A stretch of DNA of 64,000 nucleotides, from the NCBI GenBank assembly GCA_958299035.1, contig CATQJL010000305.1, positions 72,694,792 through 72,758,791 on the forward strand, written 5' to 3'. The notes beneath the pieces were generated by a model, which was not told the DNA's origin, made no database searches, and worked only from the letters and a program-made list of their open reading frames with translations. This stretch comes from Cylicocyclus nassatus. Taxonomy: Eukaryota; Nematoda; Chromadorea; Rhabditida; Strongylidae. Of the stretch, positions 18,081-39,267 are shown one piece after another; position 1 is the stretch's first letter; every line of letters starts with the position of its first letter. A program made the position numbers and the translations under genes.

Positions 18081-18491
18081 TGTAAATAGAAGTTTATGTT
18101 TGTATATATCCGGTATGTAAACCTACACTTATTCTTTTCCTTTCCTTTTTGCTGTTTCCCATTATCACTAGTACAATACCGTACACTTTCTTCTTTCCCA
18201 TACTCTTTGTTTACAGATGGCACAACGATAGCTCGCCGCGCAACTATGCCAAGCAAAGGAGGAGTCTGGCGAATCAGTGAAGAACGTACGACCAGCGAGC
18301 CACCACGTCTTTGGGCTCCAATCTCTCTTTCTTGTTGTGTTTCTGTTTTTTGCATTGCCGGCTTGGTATATTTGCGAGTTGTTCATGTTTACTGAGATAA
18401 ACACATGTCGTGAGATTGTGTTAGGTGCACCTTAAGGCGTTCTCTCGCGCTAATATGGTATCGTTCATGTGAGAGGGTGACACGATATCCA
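18081..18491 (+). repeat. 5' LTR of the composite element
   Basis: Direct repeat of 38856-39267, beginning TG and ending CA. The copies are roughly 94% alike by hand count, which implies an old insertion. Short open frames on both strands within it are shared by both LTRs and are not genes. Confidence 0.85.
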
Positions 18492-18494
18492 TAA

Positions 18495-18512
18495 ATGGTA
18501 GCAGCGAGTGCG
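18495..18512 (+). other. Candidate primer-binding site
   Basis: TGGTAGCAGCGAGTGCGG lies three bases after the end of the 5' LTR. A leading TGG pairs with the CCA end of a tRNA. The tRNA species cannot be named without a comparison set. Confidence 0.55.
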
Positions 18513-19339
18513 GCCTCGTAGTAGCCCGCGACCCAAACCGACCTTACCTCTTGTAGGAATTGAATTCCTTATGAGAGTAGCTCATGAGATGACCGGTTTA
18601 GCCTCAGCCGGGGGTGATTTGATTGGAAAACTGTGCAGCGTAGAGTCTGGGGGATGGCCACCTACTAAATTCAAAATCTCTCTCAATTTTCTCTTCAAAT
18701 TATCTGTCTTTTTAATGTCTTTTGTTGGAATTTTGTCGCTGCATGGTAACACACAAGAAATGAATGATTTTGTTCTTCACTCAAACCTCGTCGCCTATTT
18801 GGGTGGAATCTGGGATCCAGACAAGTTGAAATAATTGGTCCTTGTTGGCCATTATTCACCAAAAATGTGTGATTTGCAATTGAAAAGACTATTCCAAAAA
18901 AATGGTGATATTTCTGTTGATAATGTTGTTTCCTTATTACTCTGAGTGTCCTGAGAAACATATCGTTTGTTCCCCAGCAAGATTCCCATAGGTACCACGT
19001 CATCTCGCTGCCTTTCGCACTTTTGAATGTGTTAACTTCGGGCACTTCCGTTGAAATTTCACGAGAAACGCGTCAAAAAGAGCAAAAGGCAGTGTCGCAC
19101 CACGTACGCACGCTGGTTCACATGGGAACCTCTCTGGGGCGCAGACAGTACGTTACATCACTCTCATATCATCCAAAAGCCCTAGTCTTTTTTATAATCA
19201 CGAGTCCCCCCCCCCCTACCCCCGTTTCCGAGAGGCAGGAGGGCCAAGAGAACCCCCCATAAGCGACGGATACGGCGCATCCCACCTTGCAAGAAGGTTT
19301 TTGATGGAGGGTAGGCAAGGAAATCCTTGCAGTAGTTGG
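18513..19339 (+). other. 5' leader of the LTR element
   Basis: Between the primer-binding site and the inserted TIR element. There is an open frame at 18508-18834 without recognisable domains. The leader resumes after 20449. A GTGAGT donor-like site at about 20755 may be the 5' splice site for subgenomic messages; this is inference. Confidence 0.35.
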
Positions 19340-19345
19340 CTGGAA

Positions 19346-20449: not shown

Positions 20450-20465
20450 CTGGAACGTTTGCAGA

Positions 20466-20545
20466 GCTTTGGCCCGGGAGGGGAATTGAACCCTCCCTGG
20501 ACTAGCGAGAAACAGACTCGATCGCCTTGCACCATCCGCCGCTTA
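20466..20545 (-). other. tRNA-like sequence, probable SINE or tRNA relic
   Basis: On the minus strand a TGGTGCAAGG A-box-like motif is followed about 45 bases later by GGTTCAATTCC, a B-box match, within a GGGAGG...CCTCCC stem. The T loop appears one base too long and I could not form a proper acceptor stem, so it is not called as a working tRNA. It sits just outside the TIR element and could be a tRNA-derived SINE head. Confidence 0.4.
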
Positions 20546-21484
20546 TCAACAGGTACCTTCCTGAGCTAATTGATCCTGGTGGCGCCGGTGACCTGACGTG
20601 GCGATACATGTTAATAGCTGGCAGGAACCGGCAAGCTCAGCGAACCGGTCAATACATGGTAAGAAATGTGGCACTCAACAGATATCGACCGTTCTACTCC
20701 AGCCACTTACTTTTCTGCCATCCGATCCACCACGAGGACCTCCAGGATTAGGTGAGTTTTTATCATATAATAGATCCATTTTTTCCCATAGAACGCTGCT
20801 TTTTCTCACTTCTTGTTTAGTTGCGTTTTTGAGAGGAATGCACCATTTTTGCATAATCTTACTTTCTGCTCATTCATGATGCATTCTCGCTACTAATTGT
20901 TCATAACATTAGACCTATCCTTGTGCAAGTCTTTTTCACGTGTTGTTTTCGCTATGACCTTTCTTTCTCGTGCACTTTCTATATTCTTGATCGCAAGCTC
21001 TCGCATAGCTTACAATCAACAAACTTTACACAAACTCTGCGTATAATTTTCTTACGTTTCTTTCCCCAAACTGCTCAGAATTTCAAATTCGCAGGCGTAA
21101 AATTTTTCTTTATGCACATTTTTCTTTGTCCGTGCCCCAAACGGAGTTTCATTCATTCCATCTCGGTTTTTCGCGGCTAAATCACGCAACAAATTTCTCT
21201 TTGTCTATCATAAACATAGTCTGCGTGCAATCTCAAGCATTCCCATTCAATGTTTGAATTCCCATTCATGATCTCACGCGAACTTTAGTATGTTTTCAAG
21301 CGCGATAGCATCTTTGTCCCTTTGTGTGAGAAACTCTCATACAAAGCTTTCCCCTATCTTGGCTTTCATCGAGCACATGTTGCCGATGGCAGAAACAAAG
21401 ATGCAGTGCGCACAAAGAGTACATACCATCGGGGATAGTATATAATAAGCCGACTTAGGAGACGAGTACCCACTCCAACGCTAA

Positions 21485-22495
21485 GGATCTGGAGGAGCAA
21501 CGCCTTCTCCATACTCAAGCCAACATCGCTCGCATCAACACCCGATCTCGGACTACAACACAGGACAACTACGACTCTGCTCGATCATCACCTCCAGAGA
21601 CGGTAAGTCCAGTTGATTCGGCATTGACTACCGGTGAAGGTATGTTTCCAACGGAAGTTAATGTTCTAAGTCAAGCTTATAGCGGCCTTGCCCTCGGGAA
21701 GCTCGCGCCCAAATATGTTGAATACTTCTTTATAGACCCAAGATTTTAATGAGTGGCATCGCCAGTTTGAAGACATTATGCGCAATTCTGTCGTACCTCT
21801 GCCGGAACAACTCAAAGTTAATGCACTTCACGCTATTTTGAGGGGCGACGCGCACGATATCATTGAAGAAATGGTCTGAGGACAGAAACAATTATGATAA
21901 GGTAGTTTCGTTTCTACGCTCGCATTTTGAGTTGCCATACTCTCGCGAAATAGCAAGACAAGAACTGGCGGAATGCAAGCAAAGAGCCAACGAAGATGTG
22001 GACTCTTTTAGTAAGCGCGTCCGAAAAGTGGTCCAAATTCTAATGAAATGGGCGCCTAAGAACATTGTGCAAGATAAACTTTTGGAAGAGTTTGTTAATC
22101 GCCTAAAACCAGATGTGAAATGGCACGTTAAAGCGCAAAACCCCAAAACTTTCGAAGATGCTCTGGTAAAAGCAATCACATATGAGTCTTTATGCAACGA
22201 AATGTCAGATCTAATGGTATTTAATCCAGATCTGCGTACATACGTCGCAAGGAGAGCAACCGATGACGTCAGGAGAGACTTCAACCGTGAAAGGAGAGAC
22301 CATCCAACCAACAATTCCGACCGAGAGAGGTAAGATCATTTTCTAATAGATCTAATAGACCATCTTGGCCGCGTTCATCGACTGCGAATGTGACTTGTTA
22401 CAAGTGCGGAAAAATCGGTCATTTTGCTAATGTTTGTCGCTCTAGTATGCCTCCCCCTAACAAATTTTCAACAGCGGCGTCAATTTCCAATAAGA
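21485..22495 (+). pseudogene. Ty3-like Gag with CCHC knuckle, frameshifted
   Basis: The Gag reads in three frames. An N-terminal part from about 21485 ends at a stop near 21750. The frame then shifts to TQDFNEWHRQFEDIMRNSV and continues to a TGA at 21878-21880. The 21863-22333 frame then encodes the capsid-like region (REIARQELAECKQRANEDVD). A final frame carries the nucleocapsid knuckle CYKCGKIGHFANVC at 22396-22437, a perfect CX2CX4HX4C. The helical capsid followed by one CCHC motif is typical of Ty3/metavirus Gag, which packages element RNA. A TATA-like AGTATATAATAAGCC lies just upstream near 21435. Frameshifts mean no intact Gag can be made. Confidence 0.75.
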
Positions 22496-22614
22496 AATAA
22501 ATCCCCGCCAAATTCGAATGCTAGACAAAATCCAAGAGAGCGTATAGATTTAGACCCCTTGCGCAACGTAATTCAATCCTGCATCAGCGATCAGATAGTT
22601 ATGACAGATCGAAT

Positions 22615-24133
22615 GTGCTAGCAGTAGAGCAGACTCCAGCGCCGGATATCACTAATGCGCGCACTCAATCTCTGCTAGAGGAAAAAGATGCTTATGTTGC
22701 GGCGCTAATCGCCAGAAATAACGCGTTGGCAGACATTGCGTTTGCAACCCGTGAACAGTTCTACAGACGGCGGAGAGATAACTCCTCGCACATTCTCTTC
22801 CACACCCAATCCTTCTAAACTCACATCCACATGCATGTTAGTTCTCGCTTTGACTGGTCACGCATCTGCATACGAATTACCTCCTGCGTACTTATGTTCT
22901 AACAAATCACCTGTCACATACTGGAAAATACCATCTGGGATCAATTGTACTAAAATTTTGCCTAGCTGGTCTGCGATAGCACGCCCAACGGAAATCAATG
23001 TGTTTAGACCAAACAGAATTAGGTATAAGAGCACAGCCAACGTTTGTAGAATAATTACCCAAACAGCCATTTATTTCGTAAACTTTTTTGGTGCTCGCTC
23101 ACAGGATACTGTAACGAAAGAGCAGACCGTCTCAAAAGGGGTGCGTCAGCACATGATCAATCACAAAGCTTGCGCTCATGGCGAACTTTCAGCAGTAGAT
23201 AACGTTTGGAAAACTTTGAATAAAATTGAAATTGTTTGGCCTTCCGCTCCTTTCCATTGTTGTTCGGGCTATACAATGACCGTTTCAAATTGTATTATAT
23301 TCCAGGCAATGGTATATGGTTACCACGGATCTCCTACGATCGAAAGCTCTATAGGACCACTGGAGGGATGCCGATATGAGGACGAAGCCTGTACAACGAA
23401 GGATGGAGCAGCCGTATTATGGACACCGGAATCAGAAAGGGATGTAAGTACGTTTTGGTTTCGCTCATGAAAGGCACTTTGGTGGATAGGGTATGGCTAA
23501 GCGACTCTAAAGAATTTGCTCTATCCTTTCCTTCATTTGATTATAAATTTCTTGATTGTGGTCGCTCTCTTGTTCCTACTAAACTGACCAGGGATACGCT
23601 GCTCAATTCTATTCTCCCATGCCTCGTCAAAAAAGACACATTAAGCCGACAGATTTGCAACAAGTTGGCCTCGCAACTTCTGACCAACTAGCCGCGCAGT
23701 TATTAGCAGTCGAGGACAATATGCAAGATTCACTGACTATATCTTTTCATCATACCATTCTGTCCTTGTGCAAATCTATGAATTCTTTAAGCATGTCTTC
23801 TGCAGCCGCTATCCTTGCTAATCCTACTGTAGCAATGCGAAATATTTTACAGCGTTCTGATATCAAAGCGAACTTTATGGGCGAAAACATTGTCGCTACG
23901 CAAGCTTGCGCTGTAATTCCTCCGTCATTATATTATTTGGTAAAATTTAACTCTTCTTGCTTTTCACATCCCTTCGTCATTGTTAACTTGCCTAATAAAT
24001 CTTAATGGAAAACATTTATCGATCCCACAACGGGAGTTTTGACCAATAAGGTAGACTCTATTCCTTGCTCTGAACATTTATCATTTAAAACCCCTTGTAA
24101 CAACTCTATTCTCAAATTCTATCCATCTACATA
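22615..24133 (+). pseudogene. Env-like glycoprotein region between gag and pol
   Basis: After gag, several frames read as a secreted, cysteine-rich protein. A signal-peptide-like start at ATG 22835 (MLVLALTGHASA) leads into a Cys-rich ectodomain with N-glycosylation sequons (for example NCTK) and the pair HCC. Further Cys and Ser/Thr-rich sequence continues through 23419-24005, in two more frames, to 24133, where a nested element interrupts it. The sequence resumes at 27979, and a hydrophobic membrane-anchor-like segment follows at about 28263-28345. Signal, ectodomain and anchor together are what is expected of an envelope protein. Its position upstream of protease and RT is unusual. The viral family of origin cannot be settled by eye. 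Several frameshifts and stops leave it non-functional. Confidence 0.55.
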
Positions 24134-24510
24134 TGTAACCGGGGGTGTCTAGTGGTATAACGGTTTTAACCGGATCGATAGAACAACAACGACTACACGG
24201 ATTGAACGACTAATATTTTATCTCAGAAAACGGTAATAAACAACAAGAAACAAGAATCGTAACTTGAACAAGGCTTACAACGAAACGACGGGCTTTACCC
24301 TCTTGGCCACTTCGGCGGGCTTACTAGTTACTTTCTATCTAAGGGGGAGATCCGCCTCTCTTCGACGGAGTTAGCTCCCGCTAGCGCTTCCTCAGCGCTG
24401 ACTCAGAGACTCCTCCTGACTCTCGGTATTTATACCCTGCCGAAGGGGTCAGCGCGGGCTTTTCTTTCCGCCACTGAAGATCGGTAGGTCGGTGATCCGC
24501 GCCCTCTGAC
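24134..24510 (-). repeat. 3' LTR of the nested element
   Basis: Matches 27416 onward with few differences. Its last base differs from the expected CA end (CTCTGAC then C rather than A). The reading frame of the third ORF runs about 130 bases into it. Confidence 0.85.
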
Positions 24511-25328
24511 CTCCGGGGAGCCGACGTCCTCGGCGGCTGCTGCAACTTGCTGAGCTTTGCACCGGGAACTCTCCTGCGGATGTCGTCGTAGAGGTAGCTC
24601 GCATATCCGTCCCTGAAATGCGTGTCGTATACCTGAAAAGAATTGTGGGGTCCATCTGCTTCCATGGTCACTCTCCTATTTTCTGTCCTTGAGGGAGCCA
24701 GCGTGAACAACTGATTTGGGTTTGCCCATTTTTTCAGTACTGATTCGATCACCGTCCACACTTTTGACTTCGTTTTCCACATATCAATCTTTTTGAACAA
24801 TGGTGGCGGCCACACGGTTACAATCTTTCCCCCTTCTTCGAGGTACTTCTTGCATATCCGCAAAGTCTCAATGATAGCCTCATCCTCCCTTCTTGGGTTC
24901 ATGGGCCATACTATGATCCACATACGACAGTTCTTCAAGTATTTCAACGCTTCTTTGAGTTGACTGAAGGATACTGCCACCTTGGTCAGTACTCCACACT
25001 GTTTCAGCTCAACTTCCTCAATTGATGTTGCACATCTTGGTGCAATAAACGCAACAAGACGTTCCTTCTCAGAACTTTGTCCTTTCTTACTGCTTGTCTT
25101 CTGAACCTTGACTCCTTTCTGGTCCTCTCCGCACATTTTCCGATCACTTCTGGAAGGGCTGTGCTTCTTGTTACCCATCCTACATGTCGACTTCCGACTG
25201 TCCGACTTCTTCCACTTGCGCTCACAAGCTTCCTCCGGCCAGATTCCTTTGGCTTTGACATCTCTTCTCTCAATGAAAGATTTCTTGCTAACAGCAGACC
25301 TGTCCTTCTCTGATATAGATCTGTTCAC
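24381..25328 (-). CDS. Extra ORF of the nested element, unknown function
   Basis: A 315-codon frame occupying the place where RT should be. The first ~90 residues are Lys/Arg/Ser-rich. A compact central region (about residues 90-225) has alternating hydrophobic segments such as KNCRMWIIVWPMNP and GGKIVTVWPPPLFKKIDMW, consistent with a folded alpha/beta domain. An SGNH-hydrolase-like fold is one possibility, but I see no clear catalytic triad and make no functional claim. The tail is basic and enters the LTR. It begins 50 bases after the protease frame stops, in a different frame, so it may be expressed by frameshifting or as part of a once-continuous polyprotein. No stop interrupts it, which suggests recent coding constraint. 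Confidence 0.5.
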   Translation of the reverse strand: MNRSISEKDRSAVSKKSFIERRDVKAKGIWPEEACERKWKKSDSRKSTCRMGNKKHSPSRSDRKMCGEDQKGVKVQKTSSKKGQSSEKERLVAFIAPRCATSIEEVELKQCGVLTKVAVSFSQLKEALKYLKNCRMWIIVWPMNPRREDEAIIETLRICKKYLEEGGKIVTVWPPPLFKKIDMWKTKSKVWTVIESVLKKWANPNQLFTLAPSRTENRRVTMEADGPHNSFQVYDTHFRDGYASYLYDDIRRRVPGAKLSKLQQPPRTSAPRRSEGADHRPTDLQWRKEKPALTPSAGYKYRESGGVSESALRKR

Positions 25329-25377
25329 AGTTATGGTACCTTGTTGGATCTTTGCTCTTACTGAGGCGGTGTTTCTC

Positions 25378-26049
25378 TTAGAGCACCATCTTATCCTTTG
25401 CTTTTACTTTGACTTCAGGCTTCTTGTGTATCACTACTTCCACCCCTAAACTCTTCAATGCATTTGTGCCAATGAGTACTTCCTCATTTTTATCGTCAAA
25501 AACATGGGAGGCAACTTTCTTCTTGCATCCTCCTTCTAGTTCCACTTCTACATTTACACCTCCGAGAAAACTCATCACATGGTTGGAAGCATCGTATATG
25601 CTTCCTTCCACAATGTCGAAAGTCTGAGGTGACTCGACATCGTACCCATCATTCCTCGCCTCTATAAGCACGCTCACGGGTAGTATACTTATCTCTGAGC
25701 CAGTGTTTAGAAGTGTCGAAACCGTTCTTCCCAACATTCTCGCTTGAGTCAATGTGATCCTGCCAACAAGTCCGATTGCTTTAAATTGGAAGCTCTTTAC
25801 GACCATGTTCCTGCCCCTACTTATCATTGATGTCACTCCATTCGAAGTCTTGATGACGCCTTCCTTCTCCGTTTTCCTGTGCTTACAATCTCTCATCGCA
25901 TGTCCGAAATGATCACATTTGAAGCATCTTTTGTCTTCCTGATCCTCATCACAGGCACTCGAGCTACTCGTTGGCTCCTGCCTTCTCATGTCAATTTCCC
26001 TTTCGCCTCTCTCCGCTGAGCTGCCGCGGCTTTGCGTCCTGGCTGGCAC
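25378..26049 (-). CDS. Nucleocapsid and aspartic-protease ORF, active site altered
   Basis: A 223-codon frame overlapping the end of gag by 64 bases in another frame, as in gag/pro frameshift arrangements. It contains one knuckle, CFKCDHFGHAMRDC (about residues 41-54), a Ser-rich patch before it, and a retropepsin-like domain (about 85-205). The active-site loop reads LLNTGSEISILP where retropepsins have DTGS. The codon at 25705-25707 encodes Asn, so the catalytic Asp is lost in this copy. Further along, a DDKNEEVLIGTNALKSLGV segment matches the C-terminal retropepsin I/LG motif. The frame is otherwise open. Confidence 0.7.
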   Translation of the reverse strand: MPARTQSRGSSAERGEREIDMRRQEPTSSSSACDEDQEDKRCFKCDHFGHAMRDCKHRKTEKEGVIKTSNGVTSMISRGRNMVVKSFQFKAIGLVGRITLTQARMLGRTVSTLLNTGSEISILPVSVLIEARNDGYDVESPQTFDIVEGSIYDASNHVMSFLGGVNVEVELEGGCKKKVASHVFDDKNEEVLIGTNALKSLGVEVVIHKKPEVKVKAKDKMVL

Positions 26050-27056
26050 ATACCCGTTTCTACTTGCTTTCCTCCAGGACGGAGCTTGCTGTTCGCTCCT
26101 CCTCTCAAATTTGCAAAATCTTCGCGACTGTTCAATTTAATCGCGACTTCTTTTACCCTGTTATATGCCTCAGCTGGGTCCACTTGGTGTAGGATTCCCA
26201 CCAGCTGCACGTATTCCGGCCATGACGTCAGATTCTCCAGCAGAATATGTGCGTACTCCATCGATCTTTCCTCAATGGTACATTGAGGATTGGCCTTCCT
26301 TGCTAGGTTCTCGAGGGCGACACAGAAGTCCGCGACCTCTTGGCCTGGCCTCAAGCGCATGTTCCTTAAGGCTGTCAGCGCCTTCAATCTAGCTGCTGTG
26401 GAGTCACAAGCCAGTAGTGAAGCCATCTCCCTTACTACTCTGTCAAAGCCTTGCTGTCTTACCCCCATGGGTATGCTCAGAAATAAGGACTTTGCCCTTT
26501 CTTCCAAGTGTTCATCACCCGGGACCTCTATTAGCAACTGTTCATCCCGGACCATGGTACCATACTTCCTTTTGAACTTTCGAATGAACCTGTCAAAGTC
26601 TTCATTCTCATAGCCCTTGAAGACTCCAGGATGAGGAAAAGTCATGCTTTGAAAATAGCTAAGCAATTGATCTTCCACACCTCGATGATTGTCGAGTGAT
26701 CCGACATCCGACCCTCTCAACACACTGCCTTCCCTCACTGCAACTGCCGTTGCTCTGGGACCGAGTATCTGGTTCAACTCTGCTGTGAGGTTCTCCAGCC
26801 TACCTAACACTGTGGCTACCTTAGCCTCTAACTCTTCTTCAAGTGGCAATCCATCAACTGGTATCCTACATCGGCTAAGGACCTTGCTTACCATCCCAGG
26901 TAGCATTTCCACTTCTTTTCTGATGAGGTTTATCTCCTCCATCATCAAGTGTGCTTTCCTCTTATGGATATCATCTGCACATCTTTGCTTCCGACCCATA
27001 TTCACGAACATTAATGTATTCGGCAGCGAAACGCTTCGCCTTGCTTTTACATTCAT
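25986..27056 (-). CDS. Gag polyprotein of the nested element
   Basis: A 356-codon uninterrupted frame. An N-terminal helical part (HLMMEEINLIRKEVEMLPGM) is followed by a capsid-like domain from about residue 130 (FPHPGVFKGYENEDFDRFIR) to about 310, with the REMASLL and QEVADFCVALENLARKA helices expected of Ty3-type capsids. It packages element RNA into cytoplasmic particles. No knuckle is present in this frame; it lies in the overlapping downstream frame. It reads away from the 5' LTR at 27416 with a short leader. Intact length supports a young copy. Confidence 0.75.
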   Translation of the reverse strand: MNVKARRSVSLPNTLMFVNMGRKQRCADDIHKRKAHLMMEEINLIRKEVEMLPGMVSKVLSRCRIPVDGLPLEEELEAKVATVLGRLENLTAELNQILGPRATAVAVREGSVLRGSDVGSLDNHRGVEDQLLSYFQSMTFPHPGVFKGYENEDFDRFIRKFKRKYGTMVRDEQLLIEVPGDEHLEERAKSLFLSIPMGVRQQGFDRVVREMASLLACDSTAARLKALTALRNMRLRPGQEVADFCVALENLARKANPQCTIEERSMEYAHILLENLTSWPEYVQLVGILHQVDPAEAYNRVKEVAIKLNSREDFANLRGGANSKLRPGGKQVETGMCQPGRKAAAAQRREAKGKLT

Positions 27057-27395
27057 TGGTAATCAACGCCGCACGCAAAATCGCGCGTCTCAGCTGATCG
27101 AAGAGAGTCAGTTACAATCGATACACACGCCTCTATTAAGCGAGGATGATTTAATCAATAATCACTTCTCCCTTATACCTTAACTGCCTGCTCTGTATGA
27201 TATGATAGTGACTTTTTTCCAGGTGATCTTAGATATGACCTTCTTGGCCTGTTACGTACATCACCTGCTTGATGACGTATAGATTTCCAACCTTTTTGGT
27301 CTTTTGGTTTCGCCTTCTTGGCTCGTTCTACGCGTTCTATGCTGTCTTGCCTCTGAGACAGTCGATATCAGTCGCCCGTGTGTATTTCAATCGAT

Positions 27396-27415
27396 CCAGG
27401 TCGGCTCGGCCCCCA
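27396..27415 (-). other. Primer-binding site of the nested element
   Basis: On the minus strand TGGGGGCCGAGCCGACCTGG immediately follows the ACA end of the 5' LTR, the expected position and TGG start for tRNA priming. Confidence 0.65.
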
Positions 27416-27974
27416 TGTAACCGGGGGTGTCTAGTGGTATAACGGTTTTAACCGGATCGATAGAACAACAACGACTACACGGATCGAACGACTAATATTT
27501 TATCTCAGAAAACGGCAATAAACAACAAGAAACAAGAATGCGTAACTTGAACAAGGCTTACAACGAAACGACGGGCTTTACCCTCTTGAGCACTTCGGCA
27601 GGCTTACTAGTTACTTTCTATCTAAGGGGGAGATCCGCCTCTCTTCGACGGAGTTAGCTCCCGCTAGCGCTTCCTCAGCGCGGACTCAGAGACTCCTCCT
27701 GACTCTCGGTAGTATTTATACCCTGCCGAAGGGGTCAGCGCGGGCTTTTCTTCCCGCCACTGAAGATCGGTAGGTCGGTGATCCATGATCTTACAATTTA
27801 CGAGTTGTTGTGCCATTAACTCTGATCTTCCATTGAGTTCAGGTGATCTTTGATATTTATGTGTTGTTGTTGTGGTTTTTTGTTGATGTTTTATAGTTCG
27901 TGTTGTTGAAACATAGGGTTATGCCTATGAATAGATGAAATGAAATGAAATGAAATGATCCGCGCCCTCTGACA
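27416..27974 (-). repeat. 5' LTR of the nested element, with insertion
   Basis: Same sequence as the LTR at 24134, but split by a 171-bp insertion at 27785-27955. It ends TGACA, followed by the CATA target duplication. Confidence 0.85.
27785..27955 (+). mobile_element. Short retroposon with GAAAT tail inside the LTR
   Basis: Absent from the other LTR copy and flanked by TGATCC on both sides (27779-27784 and 27956-27961). It is T/G-rich and ends in four repeats of GAAAT-type pentamer. A short tandem tail plus target duplication indicates LINE-mediated retroposition, either a SINE or a truncated LINE 3' end. Confidence 0.75.
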
Positions 27975-27978
27975 CATA

Positions 27979-28928
27979 TACCTTCGAATCTATGTCTTCC
28001 TCCGATATCACCACTCTGCAACTCTCTAGTGATCATTCACCTAATTTCGCGAAGCCAGCTCTTACTCTAATTCATAATTTGGTTATTACTAATCTAAGTG
28101 AGTTCATACCTGAACAAAAAAAAATACTGAATTGTGGGCAGCAATCGAAATCATGACGCAGTTTTGAACGCACACTTGAGCTCCTCTAATCCTAATCCTG
28201 TACAAAAGGTTTCAAACGTTAATTTCATTACTGCAACACCGTGTAAATTACTCAGTTACGTATTGGAGTACATCTATCATCCCTGGGTAGTGTTCTGTTG
28301 TACCATTGTTACCTTTCAAATACTTTCACGCGCTCTCATATTTTATCTTTCGACCCAAATTCCAACCAACCTTTTGCAATATTTTCGCAACTTCCAACCT
28401 AATAATCAAAGTAATCCTTCAAATAACCAAGCCAATGGCTCCAATGCAATGCAACTAACAACGATTAAGCGTTATGATTTCCCTAAAGTTTGCCATGTAT
28501 CCCTAACACACCCGATTACAGCCGCACATATTAGGACAAAAATCAATGACATAAGCGTATCAGCATTGATTGACACGGGTTCAACCATAACATTAGCTTC
28601 GGATGGGATATGCGCAGCTCTAGGAATATTCCATCTTGACAAACCCCACATGTTCGCAGCATTAGGCATGGGAGGCACTCCTATCCCAATGGCTGGTTCT
28701 AAAACTGTCAAATTCGACATAGGTAACACACAGTTACACGCGGTTTTCCATTTCATTAAAGGCCATTGTGTAACTAATGTAGACTCCAATTATGAAGTAA
28801 TTCTGGGTCAAGACGTTTTTTCCAAGCTACTCCCAATGACCATCAACTATCAAACAAAGCAAGTGCATTTCGGTAGTACCGTACCCCCCCCCCCCCTGGT
28901 GCAACCCCTAAAAAGAAAAGCGATCTGA
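27979..28928 (+). pseudogene. Env-like C-terminus joined to aspartic protease
   Basis: Env-like sequence resumes after the nested element. The 264-codon frame at 28134-28928 starts in it, passes through a strongly hydrophobic membrane segment (about residues 44-66), then an Asn-rich linker (NNQSNPSNNQANGS-like), and ends with a retropepsin domain. The protease active site, ALIDTGSTITLAS, is at about 28561-28599 with the catalytic Asp intact. An EVILGQDVFSKL motif follows near its C-terminus. One open frame spanning the membrane anchor and the protease suggests both came from one polyprotein. A run of 13 C at 28884-28896 encodes prolines just before the frame ends and may be the site of a frameshift. 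Confidence 0.65.
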
Positions 28929-29267
28929 GCGAGTTAGAGTACCCGATTAGAGTGAGGGATACGATATGCCTGCAACCTAATAGCGAAAGTTTTGTAGTGT
29001 GCACAGCCCCGCCCACAAACTCAAAGAATGACTTTGTCTTGGTGTAACAATGTACAAAATTAAATGAAAAAGACCTCGTAGTAGCTCCGGCCATAATCAA
29101 TTCCGAGACACCATATATTTTGGTGTCTAATCCAAGCAATCAGCCGGCAACCCTATATGCAGGCATGCATATAGCTAATGCCGCTGAGGTGGCTCAAGAG
29201 GGTCTTACGGTAACTGAAGCAGATGATACGCAAATTACTCCCGCAATCTCATGTGCCGGCGAATTAT
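28929..29267 (+). pseudogene. Pol linker between protease and RT
   Basis: Frames continue pol beyond the poly-C tract, including NPSNQPATLYAGMHIANAAE before the break at 29268. Stops and a frameshift are present. It is interrupted by a mariner-type MITE. Confidence 0.5.
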
Positions 29268-29269
29268 TA

Positions 29270-30184
29270 GGTTGTTGCAAAAATAATGTCCGTTTTTCTA
29301 GACCTATATTTCAAACAACTTTTTTCCCATCAGACTTTCTTTTTCGATATAATATCTGCATATCATTGGAAAGCTCTCTTCATGTACTTTCTCACGGTTG
29401 TGAAATTAAGCTGCTATCTTCACTTGTGAGAATTTCATCAGCATTTTCCACATCCGCACTCAGAATCAGAATTTCATAGCTTCCACTCTCTTGACCACAA
29501 TTCAGGAGCAAATAAACGAATTCTCCTGAAAACATAGCAAGTGTATTGAATGAAGATTGTTTACCTACTGCGTGCTTATGCAGATTTTTGGAGAAATGTG
29601 GACTGAGAAATTGACGCGTCAAAATAGATACTCGCTGCTGGCATTCTATGGGTCAAAAATTTCTCATAATTAAGGCAATCGCCAAAGCTTCGACCATTTC
29701 TGTAAGCTTGAAGTTAGCACACCTTAAATATATTATTTGCAGAGAAACTTAGCTATTCAGTGCACGAAGAATTCCAAATTTTCATAATTAGGCATTTACA
29801 AGCCTACAACAAATAGGCTCAAAAGAGTGAACATTTTTGAATTTTTATCTTTCCTTTTCGCAGAATTCCTTCGTTGGAGTTTCTTCTATACACACCTATA
29901 CTATTGGCCTGCGGCTACAAAATAAGTTAATTAGCAGACAAAGGGACAAAGCTTGAAGAGAGTTGTAAGCTCTTGAAGACGAGGCTTTCAAGAGAAAAAC
30001 TTTCAGTTTTTTGACGCATGGTTTTCTTCCCGTTTGCGATATCAGTATGTGCAGGGGCGCGCTAAGTTAAGAAAGGTTTGATGTTTTTGATGGTCTTGAC
30101 TGCTTTCAAAAATATGGAGACTGAACGAAGTTATGGCCTTCCAAAGTGAAAATTTGCAAAACGGACATTATTTTTGCAACAACC
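29270..30184. mobile_element. Mariner-type MITE in pol
   Basis: Ends GGTTGTTGCAAAAATAATGT and its exact inverse (27-bp inverted repeats), flanked by TA dinucleotides (29268-29269 and 30185-30186). TA targets and this kind of terminus are typical of Tc1/mariner. There is no transposase frame. Pol coding resumes immediately after the right TA. Confidence 0.85.
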
Positions 30185-30186
30185 TA

Positions 30187-31142
30187 ATACCTTCCGATGA
30201 CCCAAGTTATAGAATTGATCTTGACGATAACGACCTAACGGAAGCCGAGCGAGACCAACTCTCAGAACTTCTTATAGAGTTTGCTGATGTTTTCTCTAGG
30301 CACCAGTACGACATAGGTATCTAGCTGCACTGCAGGCAAGGTACATATATATACTAACAGTGACCCGCCCGCACGCATTCGCCCTTACCGCGTTCCAGTA
30401 AAGTATCGCGAAGGATCACAAAAGCACGTAAATATGCTTCTAAAATGTGGCGTAATGAAGCAATCGCATACTCCATGGGTTCATAATTTAGTTGCAGTGC
30501 GTAAAAAAGACAATTCCCTGCGCATCTGTTTAGACATGCGCCGCCCAATTAATAAAGTAACTTAACACTCCCCGATCCTTATCCAATCCCTCGTATCGAT
30601 GACGTGTTAGAGAAAATTGGGGAAACAAGCACTACACTACACTAGATCTAGCTAGCAGTTACCTACAACTCCCACTAGATGACAAAAGTAGCTATAAATG
30701 TGGCGTAATAACTGAGAATCGGGTGTATCAGATGACACATCTGCCATTTGGTCTAAAATCAGCTAGTAGTTATTTTACTCGCATAATGACCCGCGTGTTA
30801 GGAGGTTTAGAGGATAACGTGCTTGAATATATTGGTGACATTCTAATCTATAGCAAAGACTTCCCATCACACCTCAGCGCCATCCGAAAAGTGTTAACCC
30901 GCTTGCGCGAATTTCACCTAAAAGCATCGCCGAAAAAGTGCGTCTTTGCCAGACCTCAAATCACTTTCCTGGGTCATACGGTAAACATGCATAGCTACTC
31001 ACCTGCAGAGGCAAATACCCGATTCATAAGAGAATTTCCCACTCCGCGCAACGTCAAGGAAGTCAAGCGTTTTGTGGTTATGGTAGGATTCCTTCGAAAA
31101 TTTATTCCAAATTTTGCAAATATTGCTGAGCCGCTCACTTGA
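30187..31142 (+). pseudogene. Ty3-like reverse transcriptase, broken
   Basis: RT blocks in order: an upstream acidic segment (LTEAERDQLSELLIEFADVF, about 30230-30300), a DPPARIRPYRV-like block near 30362, and then QMTHLPFGLKSASSYFTRIM. The catalytic-C block reads YIGDILIYS at 30828-30854. The usual motif is Y-x-D-D, so the first catalytic Asp is Gly. ITFLGHTVN follows near 30960. Stops near 30322 and 30562 and frameshifts interrupt the early blocks. Motif content and the FGLKSASSYFTRIM string place it with Ty3/metaviruses rather than BEL/Pao. Confidence 0.75.
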
Positions 31143-31790
31143 CTAACGCGTAAGGATAATAAATTCTAATAGACCGACAAGCAGGACGCCGCCTTTAGAG
31201 CTTAGGGACGCGTTATTGCAAAAACCCATCCTTGGATATCCAAATTAGATAGACCGTTTCACATTTTTACGGATGCCAGTCAGGTAGCTCAAGCGGGCGC
31301 TCTAATGCAGGAGCACGAAACAGGGCCAAGTAAATACTATGTCATAGCATACTGTAGCCGCACTTTGAGCGATAGCAAGCGTCGCTGGCCCGCGGTACAA
31401 GTAAAACTAGGTGCGATTATATTTGCGTTACGCCAATTCAACCCATATATCTGCATGTCCGAGGTAGTTCTACATAGTGACCATAAGCCGCTCACATTTT
31501 TACCAAATAAAAGTAAAAGCATGACAACCTGGCAAGGTGGATAATTGAGCTGCAGAGTTACCATATCAAAGTTGTACACGTAAAAGGTGAAAAGATTACG
31601 GTAGCCGACGACAAAAATGGAATCCCAACAGTTAGGAACGAACTGCAAGACATCATCGAGTTTACAGTTTACATCCTGTTGACTTTGCAGATGAAGAAAA
31701 ATCTGATAGGTTAGTTTTCCAGCTAAAAACCACTGAAAACTTAGAGCCCTCTACTGATGAGCAAATCAAAAAAGAAGTACCAGAAATGCA
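31143..31790 (+). pseudogene. RNase H and connection region
   Basis: Downstream of RT. FHIFTDASQVAQAGALMQ at about 31258-31311 carries the first RNase H acidic residue; YCSRTLSDSKRRWPAVQ and VVLHSDHKPLTFL follow in frame to 31544. In-frame stops at 31141 and about 31203 and a frameshift near 31544 disable it. RNase H would remove the RNA strand during reverse transcription. The region ends where a hAT-type MITE is inserted. Confidence 0.7.
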
Positions 31791-31827
31791 AACAAAACAA
31801 CTATAAAATTCGATGGTTGCTTATACT

Positions 31828-32814: not shown

Positions 32815-32829
32815 CTTATACTATCGATT

Positions 32830-34861
32830 TAAACGAAAAGATGCGGTAAACCTGTTTTATTGGTACCCCGATCGTTGCGACAATTGCTCTTTGAAGCTCA
32901 TCATTCTAGCTCACTTTCAGAAGGCCATGTCAGCTGGCGAAAAATATTAGCCAAAATCTTGCGTAAGTACTATTGGCCTACAATCTATAGTGATATACAT
33001 AAATGGTGTGAAAGCTGTCTCACATGCCAAATGCGCAGAAAACCTAAACCAGCTTATAAAGAAGAACTTATTCCAGTTCACAGCGAAGCTGTTTTCGCCA
33101 AAGTTGGACTCGATCTATGTGGACCTCTCAACACGGATAGAGGTAACAAGTACATCTTGAACATAGTATGCTGGTTCACCAGGGGCGGTATGCAACAATC
33201 GCCCGTCCGGGTAAGTTACCCGGACAGGTAGTTCCCGCTTCATAGCTTGGTGCTCTGTGGATCTGTGCTCTTCTTTGTTTGTTCATCTTTTGGAGGTTCT
33301 ACTACCCTAAATTGTAGCACAATGGATAGAGCACTCTGCTGTATAAGCTGAGATAATTCGTTATTTGTATGATCCCGAACGGGATCTCCCACTGATTGCG
33401 CTTATTTTCAAAGTTATTTATAACCGCAAAAACTCAATGAAAACGTCACAGAGTTTTGCTGTCAATTTATTGAGACAGTGCTACGCATGTTTGCGAGAGA
33501 AATATGTGAAAAATCAAGTTGACAAAATCTTCGCTGAACCTGTGCTCGCGAATTGGGCTCTATCGAAAAACTCAAAACTTGTACAATTCATCTGTGCTAC
33601 TAAAAACATGCCTAGCATGTCGTAATAGGTCGACAGCAAAACTCTGTGACGTTTTCATTGAGTTTTTCGGATATAAATAACTTTGAAAATGGGCGTGATC
33701 AGTGGGGGATCCGTTCGGGATCATACAAATAACGAATTATTCCAGCTTATACATCAAAGTGCTGCTAGTCATTGTGCTACAATATTAGGTTAGTAGAGCC
33801 TCCAGTAGATGAACAAACAAGGAAGAACACAGATTCCCAGAGCACCGAGCTATGAAGCGGAAACTACCTGTCCGGGTAACTTACCCGGACGGGCGATTGT
33901 TGCATACCGCCCCAGGTATGTCATTTCCACTCCGTTACCAAACGCAAGAGCACTCACAGTCGCTCATGCACTTCTCACAGAATGCGTCTTAAAATATGGA
34001 ACTATGACCGAATTGGTTTCTGGCCAGGCTTCTAGTTTTACCTCTCATTTTTATCAGGAATTCTGTAATTTCCTCAACATACAGCAAAAATTAGCAACCC
34101 CTTATCATTCCATGGGAAATGACGCTACAGAAAGAACATTTGGTATTTTCCAGGCAATGCTATCCAAATTCATCAACGAAAAACAAAAGGATTGGGACCT
34201 ATTCATTCCCTGCGTTACTTTCTGCTACAAATGCTACAATACTTTCTACTACCATAAATGAAGCGACAGGTGAGAGTCTCCTTTCTTTCTAATGTTCGGT
34301 AGAGATCCCTCACCATAGACAGAATTTTGCTGCCGCAAGCACGCGCACAAATTCCTAATTTCGACGAAACCTAGGAATATAAAGCGCAATTAGTTTCTGC
34401 ATTACATCTTGCTTGCTCTAATGCTGCAGAGCACGCACGTTCGTATAAGCAGAAAATGAAGGAGCAGTACGGCAAAACAGCGCGACCTACGCAAATTAGG
34501 GAAGGCGATCGCGTTTTGTTTCGTAATTACACAAATAAGCAAGACTTAGCGCGTAAACTCTGCTTTCCGTGGATTGGACAGTTCAGAGTCGTAAAATTGG
34601 AACATCCGCACGCTGTAATTGTTAGCATAACTGCGCCGCAATCAAAGCCGCGCAAAGTCCGTCTGAACTAAATAAAAAAGTAGTGGATTATACGGGCCCA
34701 GCATCCACGCTTCCAACGATTTCAGAAGAAGAAAATTTGGCAAAAGACAGTCCTGAGCAAGCACTTATAGGGCATAATCATGCTGTCACAAGAACGACAG
34801 AAAACACGCCAGTAGAAGTAGCAGAATCGCATAATTACAATTTACGCTCAAGAAAACCATA
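32830..34861 (+). pseudogene. Ty3-like integrase, split by a foldback element
   Basis: The zinc-binding part and start of the core lie at 32860-33180 (KYYWPTIYSDIHKWCESCLT with HHCC residues, then VGLDLCGPLNTD holding the first catalytic Asp). A 730-bp foldback element follows. The core resumes at about 33914 and runs to 34261. The second catalytic position reads LVSGQASSF where the motif should be SDxG, so the Asp is lost. The ATERTFG segment holds the final Glu. The C-terminal DNA-binding part is at 34456-34671 (REGDRVLFRNYTNKQDLARK), and a short tail ends near 34861. At least two frameshifts are present. Integrase would have joined element DNA to the chromosome. Confidence 0.75.
33183..33912. 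mobile_element. Foldback element, copy A
   Basis: Termini GGGCGGTATGCAACAATCGC and inverse. The arms are about 280-300 bp each, nearly identical, around a ~150-bp centre. CAG sits at each edge and may be a 3-bp duplication. It interrupts the integrase core. A related element lies at 51301-52021. Confidence 0.8.
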
Positions 34862-35200
34862 AATATCAGTATCGTAAAAATCCAACTTAACATATTATCA
34901 CTATTTCAGGTATTTCAGCCTTATCGCTACAACGACGCTTTTTTCTTCACATTTTCCTCACCATTCCATGACGAATTCTCTATCTGTTGAAAATTTCCAT
35001 TTTTTCCCATTACACACCATATTATCCTCACATTCTCATCCTTAATATTTCTGCGATTCATCAATGTTTTGTGTTTTTCACCCGGTTTTCGGAAATCGTC
35101 GTGTTCGCTAGATCGCTCGTTTGCACATAAAAATCATCAAAATTTCGAAATTTCGCATTTCAGATGAAATGTAGAAACTGTGGCTTCCAGCCAAGCGAAC
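34862..35200 (+). other. Spacer between pol and helicase, with splice acceptor
   Basis: AT-rich, no domain. It ends in a strong pyrimidine-poor but canonical acceptor GCATTTCAG at 35155-35163, 37 bases before the helicase start codon. Such an acceptor would allow the helicase to be made from a spliced subgenomic message; this is inference. Confidence 0.45.
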
Positions 35201-38200
35201 ATGGGCGTTGCCTCATCTGAGGAACCCCCGAAGCAAATCGAAAATGAGCCGGATCTTTGCGGTATGTACCGGAACTTCCAACTTAACGAAAAGCGATTTT
35301 GCAGGTGCCCTGACATCACAGGGTGATGCCCATCTGGAGGAGGAGCGCGAAGAAAAGGACATGGAGACGTCCTTAACAACATCTAGCGCCTATGCTCCGA
35401 TGGACGAGGATACGCCCCAAGGAGAACAGGTACCGCTCGTCGCCTCTTCGGAGGGACCTGCAAAACAAAAAATTCCAAATATATGCGGGGACTCGTCGGA
35501 TGACGAATCCGCTCATAGTGTTGAGTCAAAAAATCAAAAGCTCGTCACCGTAAAGGGACCTGCGAAGAAAACTAGAGTTCGAAGAGAGGGAGTTACTTGC
35601 GCTCTTCTTCTGAGTCAGACTCGGAGGACCAGCAGTGTCCCTCTAAAATGTCCAAAATGAGCGAAGAGGTAGAGGGAGTTTTAGCATCATTGGTGCAAAA
35701 CGCAACACTAACGCCACCCGTAGTCGTCGGAGAGACATGGTCGGAGCCTAAAAAACTTTTTTACCGACGCGAGGACACCGAAAAAAGGCGCAAGGATCCC
35801 AGAAGGGAGATCGAGTGTTTTAGTAATCATCCCTTTGCAGCCTTGTTGGACGGAAAACTAGCACCGGTGGAGTCGCCATACTATAATACGAACCTGGACG
35901 CGGACGATTTCGAACGTATCCCAACTTCAGGTTATAGCGGATTGGTCGAAGGACTGTTTCCAGAAGTGGAAGAAGGCATTCCAAGATTGCTTCGATTCAA
36001 GGTGACCATCTTGGAGGCAGTTGGATCGAAGGCAATTGAGGAATTCCGCGAAAGGCACAGGTATGATGAAATAGTGCAGATTCGGAACAATCAAGAGAAA
36101 CCTCCACCGCTGCCGGCACTCAACATGGCCACAAAGGAGGAAATGACCAAAGCAGTGCATGGCCTGGTATACGACGGTGAGATCAAACCTGTACTTTATC
36201 GCGTAAAAAGTCATTTTGGTAACAGAGCTAAGCTCGAAATAGTGCCCTTCGAGACGGGATAGGCTCGACTTGTTTCTAATAACAATCGATCCATGCGCGA
36301 TCAATATCGCAACAGGTAAGAACGGCGTCGACACGTCAAAAATGATAATTGGCGACCCAATTTGGGTTTATTCGCTTAGAGAGACCGTCAAATTCTCTAC
36401 CACCAAGCTTCGAGCGCCGCGAAATTACCAAGAAGCATGCAAAGTGCGTAGGCCGAAAGTTTGGCGCGTTGCAAGATTTGCTCTAGTACACCGCGAGTTG
36501 GCACAAACGCTAGGATTCGTAGTGAGCATAGGATCCTCCAGGTCGTCCCTACGTATCTGCATGCAGGGTCATCGGCAGCTGGTTTCCATCACGAAAGCCC
36601 GCATGGAAAATCCGCAGGAATTTTCTAACGCAGAACCCAACTCATTTATTGTCGCACCTTTCAAAGCGCGTCAGTTGGACTATAGTTTTCGCTTGCCAGC
36701 CCAAAAATTTCAACGAATTGGCAGCTCATGTAGCGGAAATTCCTTATTACGCCAGTCCAGCGCCAGTTCCATTTGACGTGCGAAGAACGAGTAACGACCA
36801 CCGTGAAAGCAAGCTGTCAAACTTTAAGCTCTTTAGGACAGCCCAGCTGAAGTTTTAGAGTTCCTGGAGCCACTCTACAGCACCGCCTGTGGAGCAGTTT
36901 CGGCAGACATAACAGATGCAACGGACACCGATCTGCACCCATGCGTGTGGGAATCGCCAGATTTGAACGGCATCCCGATCATGGCTAAGTTTTCCGTCCC
37001 CATCAGTCAAAAGACTGGGTGGGCTGTAGGTAGGACAATTAGAGGAGCGTACATGTCCGATTTTCTTGAAGGTCAGATCGACCAAATAGAAATAGGCACC
37101 GAATTTTTTGAAGTGAAAGCAAAGCTCCAAGACTAGCTTCGGAGTGCGATCCGCACGTACGTAGTCAACTTTAGGACAGGACGCATTGCAGTTGGCACAT
37201 CATTGCACACGATGGAAGAGCGCGCCAATCCTGGTCTGAAGATGCTGAACGCTTCGACACTGTCCAATCTCTTCCATCCAGGTACGTTCGGCTGGAACTC
37301 AGCCAGAGCTCTACTTGCAGGAGACATTGACGTGGAAGGAATCGATACGCCGAACAAAGAAAGCATTACCGTCAATGTGGCAGGGACCTCTGTACAGCTA
37401 AATGACCATCAAGTCCATGCGGTGAACACTTCCAACAAAAACTACCCGCTGGTTGCCGACAGCTCGTACGGAGCGGGTAAGTCCCTTTGCACCGCAGTAA
37501 TGGCGTTAGAAGCAGTCAATAATGACGAAAAGATCCTCGTCACCGCAGTACAAAACAGTGCACTGGACGTAATGGATCGAAAAGTGCGCAATTGCAAGCA
37601 GAAAATGTCCGACCAGTGCGCTATGTTAACGACATCATGTCAGCGGATCCCGAAAACACATCGCCCTACGCATTGCACACGGAGAATTTCCACGTTACTC
37701 ATGGTCATCTTCTAACCAAGGCTTAGTGTAATAGGTTCAAACGCTTTTCAGAAGCTTGTCAGAAAATGAGAAACTTCGTCTTCACCGGCACGGAAAGACA
37801 AGTGGTTTCAAGCGAGCATAGAAAATTGCTCGTCTTGAAACAGAACTCGTCCGAGCAGGTAACGATTTTGGCTGCTCATTTCTTGAGGATTTACGAGCCA
37901 AATGTGTACCTCTGCACGATAGCAGCAGCCATCAATCTAACAAAAAAAGGCTTATGGCGCACGATCGGTAACTCGTGGAAGTGCATCTTGCTGGACGAAG
38001 CGTCCATGATTCCAGAGGCAGCACTTATGGCCATGCTTTCGCGATTCCAGCACGCGCGATTCACACTAATCGGGGACAGCATACAGGTGCCGCCATATAT
38101 CGGCGTGCACACGATCCCACTAGCGGTGGAGGTAAGTTCCCGCTCAGTGTTGGACGTGGCACACAAGAATGGGAACGTACCCATCTGTACGGTGAGTGCG

Positions 38201-38822
38201 GTTTATAGACCCCACGCCGAGATGATGCGGCTCAATTCGGAGCTCTTCTATGATGGAGAGCTCGTTTGCGGCACTCCGACACATCAAAGAAGAGGACTGC
38301 TATTGAGGCTGAGGATGCCGAACAGCCGGGTGCCAGTAGCTTTGGTCAATGTACCAAGCTTTTCGGCGCAATCCATCACGGGATCGCACTCTAACGATCT
38401 AGAGGCAAAAGCAGTGGTAGTTCTGGTACGTCTGCTCATGGCGGTAGGCATGAACGCGGGCGACATCTTAGTCATTTGTCTTTATCGCGACCAGAAATTC
38501 CTCTGCCAATCGCTATCACAGGGCACCGGAGTGACAGTCGGAACGGTCGACAGCGCCCAAGGATCGGAGAGATCGGTCATCATTCTGTTGCACAACTCGC
38601 ACACAGATGGAGCAAAGGGACCGGGCCACCTTCTTTTCCGACGCAAAGAGGATGAGTGTGGCTCTCTCCCGAGGTAAAGATGGCCTATTTATCATAGGTT
38701 CACTCAATTTCTTGCAGGACGTCCACACATGGTCGGCAGTGGTGCGATGGTGCGAAAGGACAGGCGTAATTACCGATCTGGGCTTTTTCCATCAACACAT
38801 GAGGCCGGCAGTTCGACTCTGA
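35201..38822 (+). pseudogene. SF1 (UPF1-like) helicase inside the LTR element
   Basis: Start ATG 35201. A 43-base intron (GTATGT...TTTTGCAG, 35262-35304) joins in phase to an acidic Ser/Glu-rich N-terminus. Helicase motifs follow in order. Walker A (GAGKSL) is near 37470-37487. Motif II (LLDEASMIPEAAL) is near 37988-38026. Motif III (GDSIQVPPYIG) is near 38074-38106. A VYRPHAEMMRLN block is near 38200. Motif V (GTVDSAQGSERSVIIL) is near 38541-38588. Motif VI (SVALSRGKDGLFIIG) is near 38653-38700. The AQGSE and ALSRGK strings place it in the UPF1/AAA_12 branch of SF1, not the Pif1 branch carried by Helitrons. Frameshifts near 35590, 36260, 36700, 37640 and 38660 and stops (for example TAG near 37134) mean it is no longer translatable. 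It ends about 20 bases before the polypurine tract, so it lies within the LTR unit. Confidence 0.7.
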
Positions 38823-38843
38823 GTCCGAGGACGGACTCTTGGT

Positions 38844-38855
38844 GAAGGGGGGAGG
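38844..38855 (+). other. Polypurine tract
   Basis: GAAGGGGGGAGG directly abuts the 3' LTR start, the expected site and composition for plus-strand priming. Confidence 0.75.
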
Positions 38856-39267
38856 TGTAAATAGAAGTTTATGTCTGTATATATCCGGTATGTAAACCTA
38901 CACTTATTCTTTTCCTTTCGTTTTTGCCTTTTCCCATTATCACTACTACAATACCGTACACTTGCTTCTTTCCCATACTCTTTGTTCACAGATGGCACAA
39001 CGATAGCTCGCCTCGCAACTATGCCAAGCAGAGGAGGAGTCTGGCAAATCAGTGAAGAACCTACGACCAACGAGCCACCACGTCTTTGGGCTCCAATCTC
39101 TCTTTCTCGTTGTGTTTCTGTTGTTTTGTATTGCCGGCTTGGTATATTTGCGAGTTGTTCATGTTTATTGAGATAAACACATCCTGTGAGATTGTGTTAG
39201 GTGCGCCTTGAGGCGTTCTTTCGCGTTAATATGGTATCGTTCATGTGAGAGAGTGACACGATATCCA
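38856..39267 (+). repeat. 3' LTR of the composite element
   Basis: Direct copy of 18081-18491. It is followed by TAAGTC, which is neither a primer-binding site nor a match to the left flank. Confidence 0.85.

Follow-up and report, generated by a model that had tools for sequence, protein, structure and literature searches.

The stretch of DNA analysed here (the window) comprises 64,000 nucleotides of the strongylid nematode Cylicocyclus nassatus (assembly GCA_958299035.1, contig CATQJL010000305.1, positions 72,694,792 to 72,758,791, forward strand), and contains a decayed Ty3/gypsy retroelement with long terminal repeats (LTRs) that occupies window positions 18077-39276 from one target-site duplication to the other. 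Between the LTRs, the genes follow each other on the plus strand in the order gag, a glycoprotein-like part, protease, reverse transcriptase (RT) with RNase H, integrase and a superfamily 1 (SF1) helicase, whose stop codon (38820-38822) lies 18 bases upstream of the polypurine tract (Table 1). A first-pass annotation of this DNA had described matching LTRs, a primer-binding site and a purine tract around Ty3-type gag and pol, with a helicase ending about 20 bases before that tract; the direct repeat, the target duplication CAAA and the tract GGTGAAGGGGGGAGG confirm the ends, and Pfam matches of separate pieces together with the collinearity of a protein from another species (see below) confirm gag and pol. 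The element is a member of the Ty3/gypsy group, as it has an LTR pair, a target duplication, a primer-binding-site-like sequence and a purine tract, as well as a Ty3-type gag and an RT-RNase H preceding the integrase.

The LTRs were first delimited by a direct-repeat search (18081-18494 and 38856-39270) and are identical at 391 of 414 aligned positions (94.4%; Kimura two-parameter distance 0.058). The flanks of other copies shift the LTR end two bases outward (...CATAAGT), to 18081-18496 and 38856-39272. The primer-binding-site-like sequence GGTAGCAGCGAGTGC stands directly 3' of the 5' LTR in six of eight leaders, window included, and the remaining two stretches start within LTR-like sequence. 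An independent LTR pair (C316, 20864664/20878209) is flanked by a different target duplication, GTAT. All genes of the window copy are fragmented into pieces spread over different frames, and this copy is dead, its helicase pieces lying in different frames and containing stops.

The helicase is almost certainly a gene of the element. A predicted protein of Oesophagostomum dentatum (P0027, 2345 amino acids (aa)) is collinear with window positions 21676 (gag) through 38807 (helicase end), indicating that this gene order is no accident of the window locus. Moreover, the LTR query gave at least 41 matches in the assembly (514,686,895 bases in 369 contigs), and when the 6 kb upstream of 39 of them were taken (all except the window's own two), helicase sequence was found in 12 stretches representing 11 elements, always on the strand of the LTR and never on the opposite one. 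The distance from the helicase end to the LTR was 25-73 bp in nine of these elements, 234 bp in one and 1646 bp in one, and pol was directly upstream of the helicase in seven. Among the 27 stretches without helicase, five contained nothing but pieces of gag or glycoprotein (a single element accounts for three of the five) and 22 were blank, as is expected where the LTR is a 5' or a solo one. In LTR pairs defined by spacing, window included, the helicase was enclosed in nine of 11, in one of the nine without pol; thus, the possibility raised by the first-pass annotation that most copies would enclose only gag and pol was not borne out. As several nested insertions lie within the window element, it could be proposed that the helicase came from a separate transposon or a host gene inserted by the 3' LTR of one element, but its presence at the same position in 11 elements beyond that of the window (one being its duplicate) and the collinear order in P0027 leave this explanation hardly any likelihood. 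A host gene beside one element and a nested helicase transposon are ruled out by the same order and by the helicase position in the other copies. In two helicase copies (L034 and L062), the upstream stretch contains nearby glycoprotein-like sequence but neither RT nor integrase; these are perhaps derivatives that lost pol and kept the helicase.

The helicase core gave at least 132 matches in the assembly. Besides the LTR-linked copies, the check for integrase or pol covered 12 of these sites, which were picked for score and open frame (six close, six distant) and not at random, taking 1.1-1.5 kb upstream. At ten of the 12, a Ty3 integrase lies just upstream on the same strand, which together with the LTR-linked copies supports the earlier proposal that the helicase is within the transcribed unit; as far as tested, it is not mainly a host gene outside LTRs. 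Close helicases (82-83% identity) follow an integrase matching P0005 at 71-85%, mid helicases (60-61%) one matching P0005 at 70-71%, and distant helicases (29-32%) one at 42-54%, with the exception of L066 (best match P0048, 70%). The two sets of identities run parallel, so that helicase and pol appear to diverge together over these tiers. The distant lineages, with frames of more than 1000 aa at about 30% identity behind distant Ty3 integrases, are found for example at C305:76131967, C1:83535079 and C1:29208642.

Searches starting from the helicase, from the integrase and from a Caenorhabditis helicase gave 17 family proteins, nine of which contain retroelement parts, always ahead of the helicase. 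Five of the nine are from strongylids (P0005, P0010, P0018, P0027 and P0054, from Ancylostoma, Ostertagia, Cooperia and Oesophagostomum) and four from Caenorhabditis (P0026, P0038, P0050 and P0065, from C. brenneri and C. japonica). It must be taken into account that six of them (P0018, P0026, P0027, P0038, P0050, P0054) entered through the integrase search, so nine of 17 is not a fair sample; with the Caenorhabditis helicase as query, all three nematode proteins, query included, were joined to retroelement parts. Since these proteins are gene predictions, a join means neighbourhood and not a fusion protein, and in the open copy of the C. nassatus genome pol and helicase are separate frames. 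The lone helicase model P0004 is listed on a contig of 215,890 bases, and so is the gag-pol model P0049. In a tree of helicase cores, suggested in the first-pass annotation, 13 strongylid rows (window piece included) and two Caenorhabditis rows, both on long branches, are split from 13 other SF1 helicases with support 99/99. In the integrase tree the window groups with strongylids, in a subclade of seven elements of which five are joined to a helicase. The joined Caenorhabditis rows stand in two places on this tree, for which loss, exchange or missing annotation is needed. No donor of the helicase was found in the protein search, where after ten nematode proteins the next matches (P0011-P0017) begin at E 1.1e-8, and a scan of viral contigs gave 39 pattern matches and no relative.

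In several copies the helicase gene is situated within the element, and in some its frame is open; relatives retain its motifs, and silent changes in it outnumber those that alter amino acids. One copy has an open pol (645 aa or more) and an open helicase (1199 aa), and there are four further open helicase frames of 1202-1224 aa. Six copies compared with the open copy of their subfamily gave dN/dS of 0.19-0.49. Between subfamilies (L018 against L036, L039, L040 and L045), the proportion of silent differences (pS) in the helicase is 0.77-0.79, near saturation, and that of amino-acid-changing differences (pN) 0.14-0.26. For the same four copies the pS of pol is 0.42-0.63, which suggests that the helicase module is of greater age than pol or has had a different inheritance, possibly through recombination. 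It could be argued that the helicase is a mere passenger, acquired by chance and carried unused, given that the window copy is dead and two LTR pairs are without it. Yet the subfamilies agree in where the gene lies, in its splice signals and motifs and in the excess of silent over amino-acid-changing differences, and the gene is present in elements of both strongylids and Caenorhabditis, which makes this explanation very improbable.

The region from the end of pol to the start of the helicase was aligned for seven copies (window, L010, L013, L018, L039, L040 and L045). In all seven, an acceptor TTTCAG or TTCCAG immediately precedes the first exon of the helicase gene, and further on the gene contains a small intron (donor G/GTATGTAC; acceptor either TTTTGCAG or ATTTCAG) of 43, 74, 74, 74, 72, 80 and 79 bases, respectively. 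As judged from the exons that read on either side, its phase is common to both subfamilies. Four of five other helicase copies scanned (L022, L024, L029 and L034) have no match to the intron region. The intron lengths are not all multiples of three and there is coding sequence on either side, which argues for genuine splicing, while the retention of the intron in DNA copies indicates that the reverse-transcribed RNA was unspliced at that site. These sequence signals predict that the helicase is translated from a spliced message, which may be fed by the leader donor or by a trans-spliced leader.

The five helicase motifs reported in the first-pass annotation were all recovered in the window pieces: I (YGAGKS), II (DEAS), III in an altered form (GDSIQVPP), V (TVDSAQG) and VI (ALSRG). 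By pattern, all five are present in nine of the 17 family proteins, and eight miss at least one; several of the eight are truncated or partial models. Pfam matched AAA_11 and AAA_12 domains in family proteins, and the long N-terminal region has no Pfam match. In the predicted structure model, almost the entire UPF1 core is matched (model residues 43-697), in agreement with a UPF1-type core fold. A first model (P0002) was too poor to serve as support, and its Foldseek list was likewise topped by UPF1. When the second model was compared with viral models, giant-virus SDE3-like and nidovirus helicases were on top, which was not used as evidence for a viral origin. The virus-type SF1 helicase of insect long interspersed nuclear elements (LINEs) was rejected as an assignment (P0001: AAA_12 2.6e-34 vs Viral_helicase1, PF01443, 1.3e-5). 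Membership in Helitrons was also rejected, as Pfam gave no Pif1 or Helitron family in the helicase pieces (E up to 1) or in P0001-P0010 (E up to 0.01). The label 'UPF1-like' is supported for the helicase core.

According to these data, we propose, with about even confidence for and against, that this decayed Ty3-type element belongs to a lineage in which the last gene, after the integrase and ahead of the 3' LTR, codes for a UPF1-like SF1 helicase, with predicted expression by splicing, that likely acts on the element's genomic RNA in the following way. The genomic RNA, with its intron and long frames ahead of the 3' end, should face nuclear retention, nonsense-mediated decay and small-RNA silencing. 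The helicase, made from the spliced message, would most likely bind the unspliced genomic RNA, and may remodel its protein coat or block surveillance complexes, in competition with host UPF1-class helicases. Full-length RNA would then be exported, translated and packaged, and the protein might be given the working name of element-owned RNA-surveillance antagonist. The suggestions of the first-pass annotation that the helicase is a captured, RNA-surveillance-like one and that it protects or unwinds element RNA are hypothetical, no donor gene having been found.

Several observations weigh against it. In two of the 11 LTR pairs, both of about 7 kb, only gag was recognised and the helicase is lacking, and the LTR at C316:20906588, which lies 28 kb from 20878209 and was not counted as a pair, would make a further helicase-less pair if it were one. 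The copy at C305:72435741-72450012, among the nine that enclose the helicase, has both flanks in common with the window element and is a duplicate of one insertion, about 280 kb away. At two of the 12 chosen sites no RT or integrase was found in the upstream stretch: L062 has only glycoprotein and protease pieces, and L065 gave no match to retroelements. Of the ten nematode proteins that the helicase-first search brought up, no more than two were linked to parts of a retroelement, a helicase is missing from many Caenorhabditis pol models, and the helicase label requires five changes on the integrase tree, at least three of them forced. In the decayed copy L036 the intron region is present, but its donor and the first acceptor are gone. 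Regarding the protein itself, the window piece alone as query matched DNA2 better (9.4e-13) than UPF1 (6e-4), DNA2 being its best solved relative. The UPF1 CH zinc domain is N-terminal and has several Cys/His zinc sites; no such domain was found here, only H30, H34, H168 and C322 being conserved before P0002 residue 575 in eight aligned N-terminal parts (an earlier survey of zinc residues covered only columns filled in at least five of the eight rows). Site L065 has, beside its upstream stretch (C223:85982238-85983038), a helicase-like frame of 1104 aa that could be a host gene or have another layout.

The higher score of DNA2 and the absent CH domain leave room for a role on DNA strands. The main alternative to surveillance antagonism is that the helicase assists reverse transcription, where it would remove structured RNA or displaced strands while an unusually long genome (about 13 kb) is copied; several LTR pairs are indeed about 13-14 kb apart. 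We regard this as rather unlikely. Suppression of silencing is also among the main rivals. Nematodes silence retroelements through small RNAs, and a helicase that unwinds double-stranded element RNA might counteract this. An analogy is given by the SF1 helicases of the insect LINEs TRAS and Jockey, for which such a function was proposed (PMC5563155), but those helicases are of RNA-virus type, a different SF1 branch, and we give this explanation a similarly small share of the probability. As for surveillance antagonism, a wider form of it would be that nematode retrovirus-like elements own a standing, splice-expressed UPF1 counterpart that antagonises host RNA surveillance, being the first such LTR lineage and kept since before the split of strongylids and Caenorhabditis; we put this forward only tentatively, as possible and somewhat doubtful.

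The remaining parts of the window copy are given in Table 1. The Pfam search, run on separate open pieces, gave Ty3_capsid (1.4e-6) and rve (2.9e-6), both slightly under curated cut-offs, an aspartyl protease (1.1e-6), RVT_1 (6.3e-15), Integrase_H2C2 (1e-19) and AAA_12 (1.5e-22). The glycoprotein-like piece of the window itself has no PF24664 (Monjiviricetes_fusion) match, though window pieces align to relatives that match this family (4e-8 and 6.4e-8 in Caenorhabditis P0023 and P0033; weakly in P0018 and P0019). Its location between gag and protease is unusual for an env-like gene. The nested LTR element is younger than its host element and looks non-autonomous, since three frames scanned gave one protease-like match and none to RT. 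The glycoprotein-like part and the 43-base intron had been missed in the first-pass annotation, to which the dead state of the copy and the nested insertions are corrections. No tRNA genes were found in the window, an Rfam scan of it gave nothing at gathering score, and an 83-base tandem repeat (2.8 copies) lies at 60642-60883.

Table 1. Features of the element and of the insertions in it (window positions)
Feature	Position	Strand	Basis or remark
Left target-site duplication CAAA	18077..18080	.	sequence; boundaries set by other copies
5' LTR	18081..18496	+	direct repeat and flank comparison
Primer-binding-site-like TGGTAGCAGCGAGTGC	18496..18511	+	candidate by sequence
Leader 5' splice donor-like GGTGAGT	20751..20757	+	seven of eight leaders retain TAG/GTGAGT
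Second donor-like GGTAAGT near gag start	21602..21608	+	GT donor there in 6 of 8 leaders (AGTGAGT in two)
gag (Ty3 capsid-like), in pieces	21736..22497	+	Pfam and protein alignment
Glycoprotein-like (env-like) part	22709..24149, resuming 27959-28153	+	homologous to Monjiviricetes_fusion region of relatives
Nested LTR element	24133..27784	-	LTRs 98.1% identical; in glycoprotein-like part; foreign to the element
Aspartyl protease region	28131..28925	+	Pfam and protein alignment
Insertion with inverted-repeat ends	29265..30189	.	foreign to the element
RT and RNase H, in pieces	30100..31711	+	Pfam and protein alignment
Integrase	32833..34668	+	broken by inverted-repeat-ended insertion 33182-33913
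3' splice acceptor-like TTTCAG before first ATG of helicase gene	35158..35163	+	copy alignment
Helicase intron, 43 bases, GTATGT...TTTTGCAG	35262..35304	+	position and phase shared by seven of the eight copies that contain the region
Helicase main exon	35305..38822	+	frame-broken; helicase core about 37137-38819
Polypurine tract GGTGAAGGGGGGAGG	38841..38855	+	directly before 3' LTR
3' LTR	38856..39272	+	direct repeat and flank comparison
Right target-site duplication CAAA	39273..39276	.	flank comparison

Retroviruses and LTR elements use host helicases, and to our knowledge none encodes a helicase of the UPF1 class. The element resembles nematode Ty3/gypsy elements (Metaviridae) in its LTRs, 4-bp target duplication, gag, protease-RT-RNase H-integrase order, primer-binding-site-like sequence and purine tract, and differs in the UPF1-type helicase after the integrase and the viral-glycoprotein-like part between gag and protease. 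The helicase shares with the SF1B helicases UPF1 and IGHMBP2 (SMUBP2) the core motifs and, in the predicted model, a near-complete UPF1 core, whereas it has no UPF1-type CH domain, has a long N-terminal region without Pfam match and is encoded by a mobile element. Captured third genes have already been described in LTR elements (of rotifers), and virus-type SF1 helicases in LINEs. TRAS and Jockey are also retrotransposons with an SF1 helicase, but they are non-LTR elements with the RNA-virus-type enzyme inside ORF2 (TRAS) or ORF1 (Jockey) (PMC5563155). The LTR elements of bdelloid rotifers carry a captured enzyme gene, ORF3, at the third-gene position, but the enzymes are a DEDDy exonuclease and a GDSL esterase, and the word helicase occurs in that article only once, in a reference title (PMC5408684). 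In Caenorhabditis elegans, the nematode LTR element Cer1 retains an intron in its RNA and depends for this RNA on a spliced accessory gene, CERV, with which it handles the export half of the problem; CERV is not described as a helicase, a word absent from the main text of that article (PMC10309623). An LTR element with an SF1 helicase was not found described in the openly licensed literature, the field searched (preprints and Repbase lay outside it), nor was an LTR lineage in which a UPF1-type helicase is a permanent gene.

Gene catalogues of strongylids list 'DNA2/NAM7 helicase' families, and these may belong to mobile elements. In the Haemonchus contortus genome paper, a helicase-domain set is among the expanded groups (PMC4054779), and these could be the same genes as the element helicase. 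Finally, a lineage with its own helicase would make the survival of retroelement RNA against nonsense-mediated decay, nuclear retention and silencing testable by the removal of one gene.
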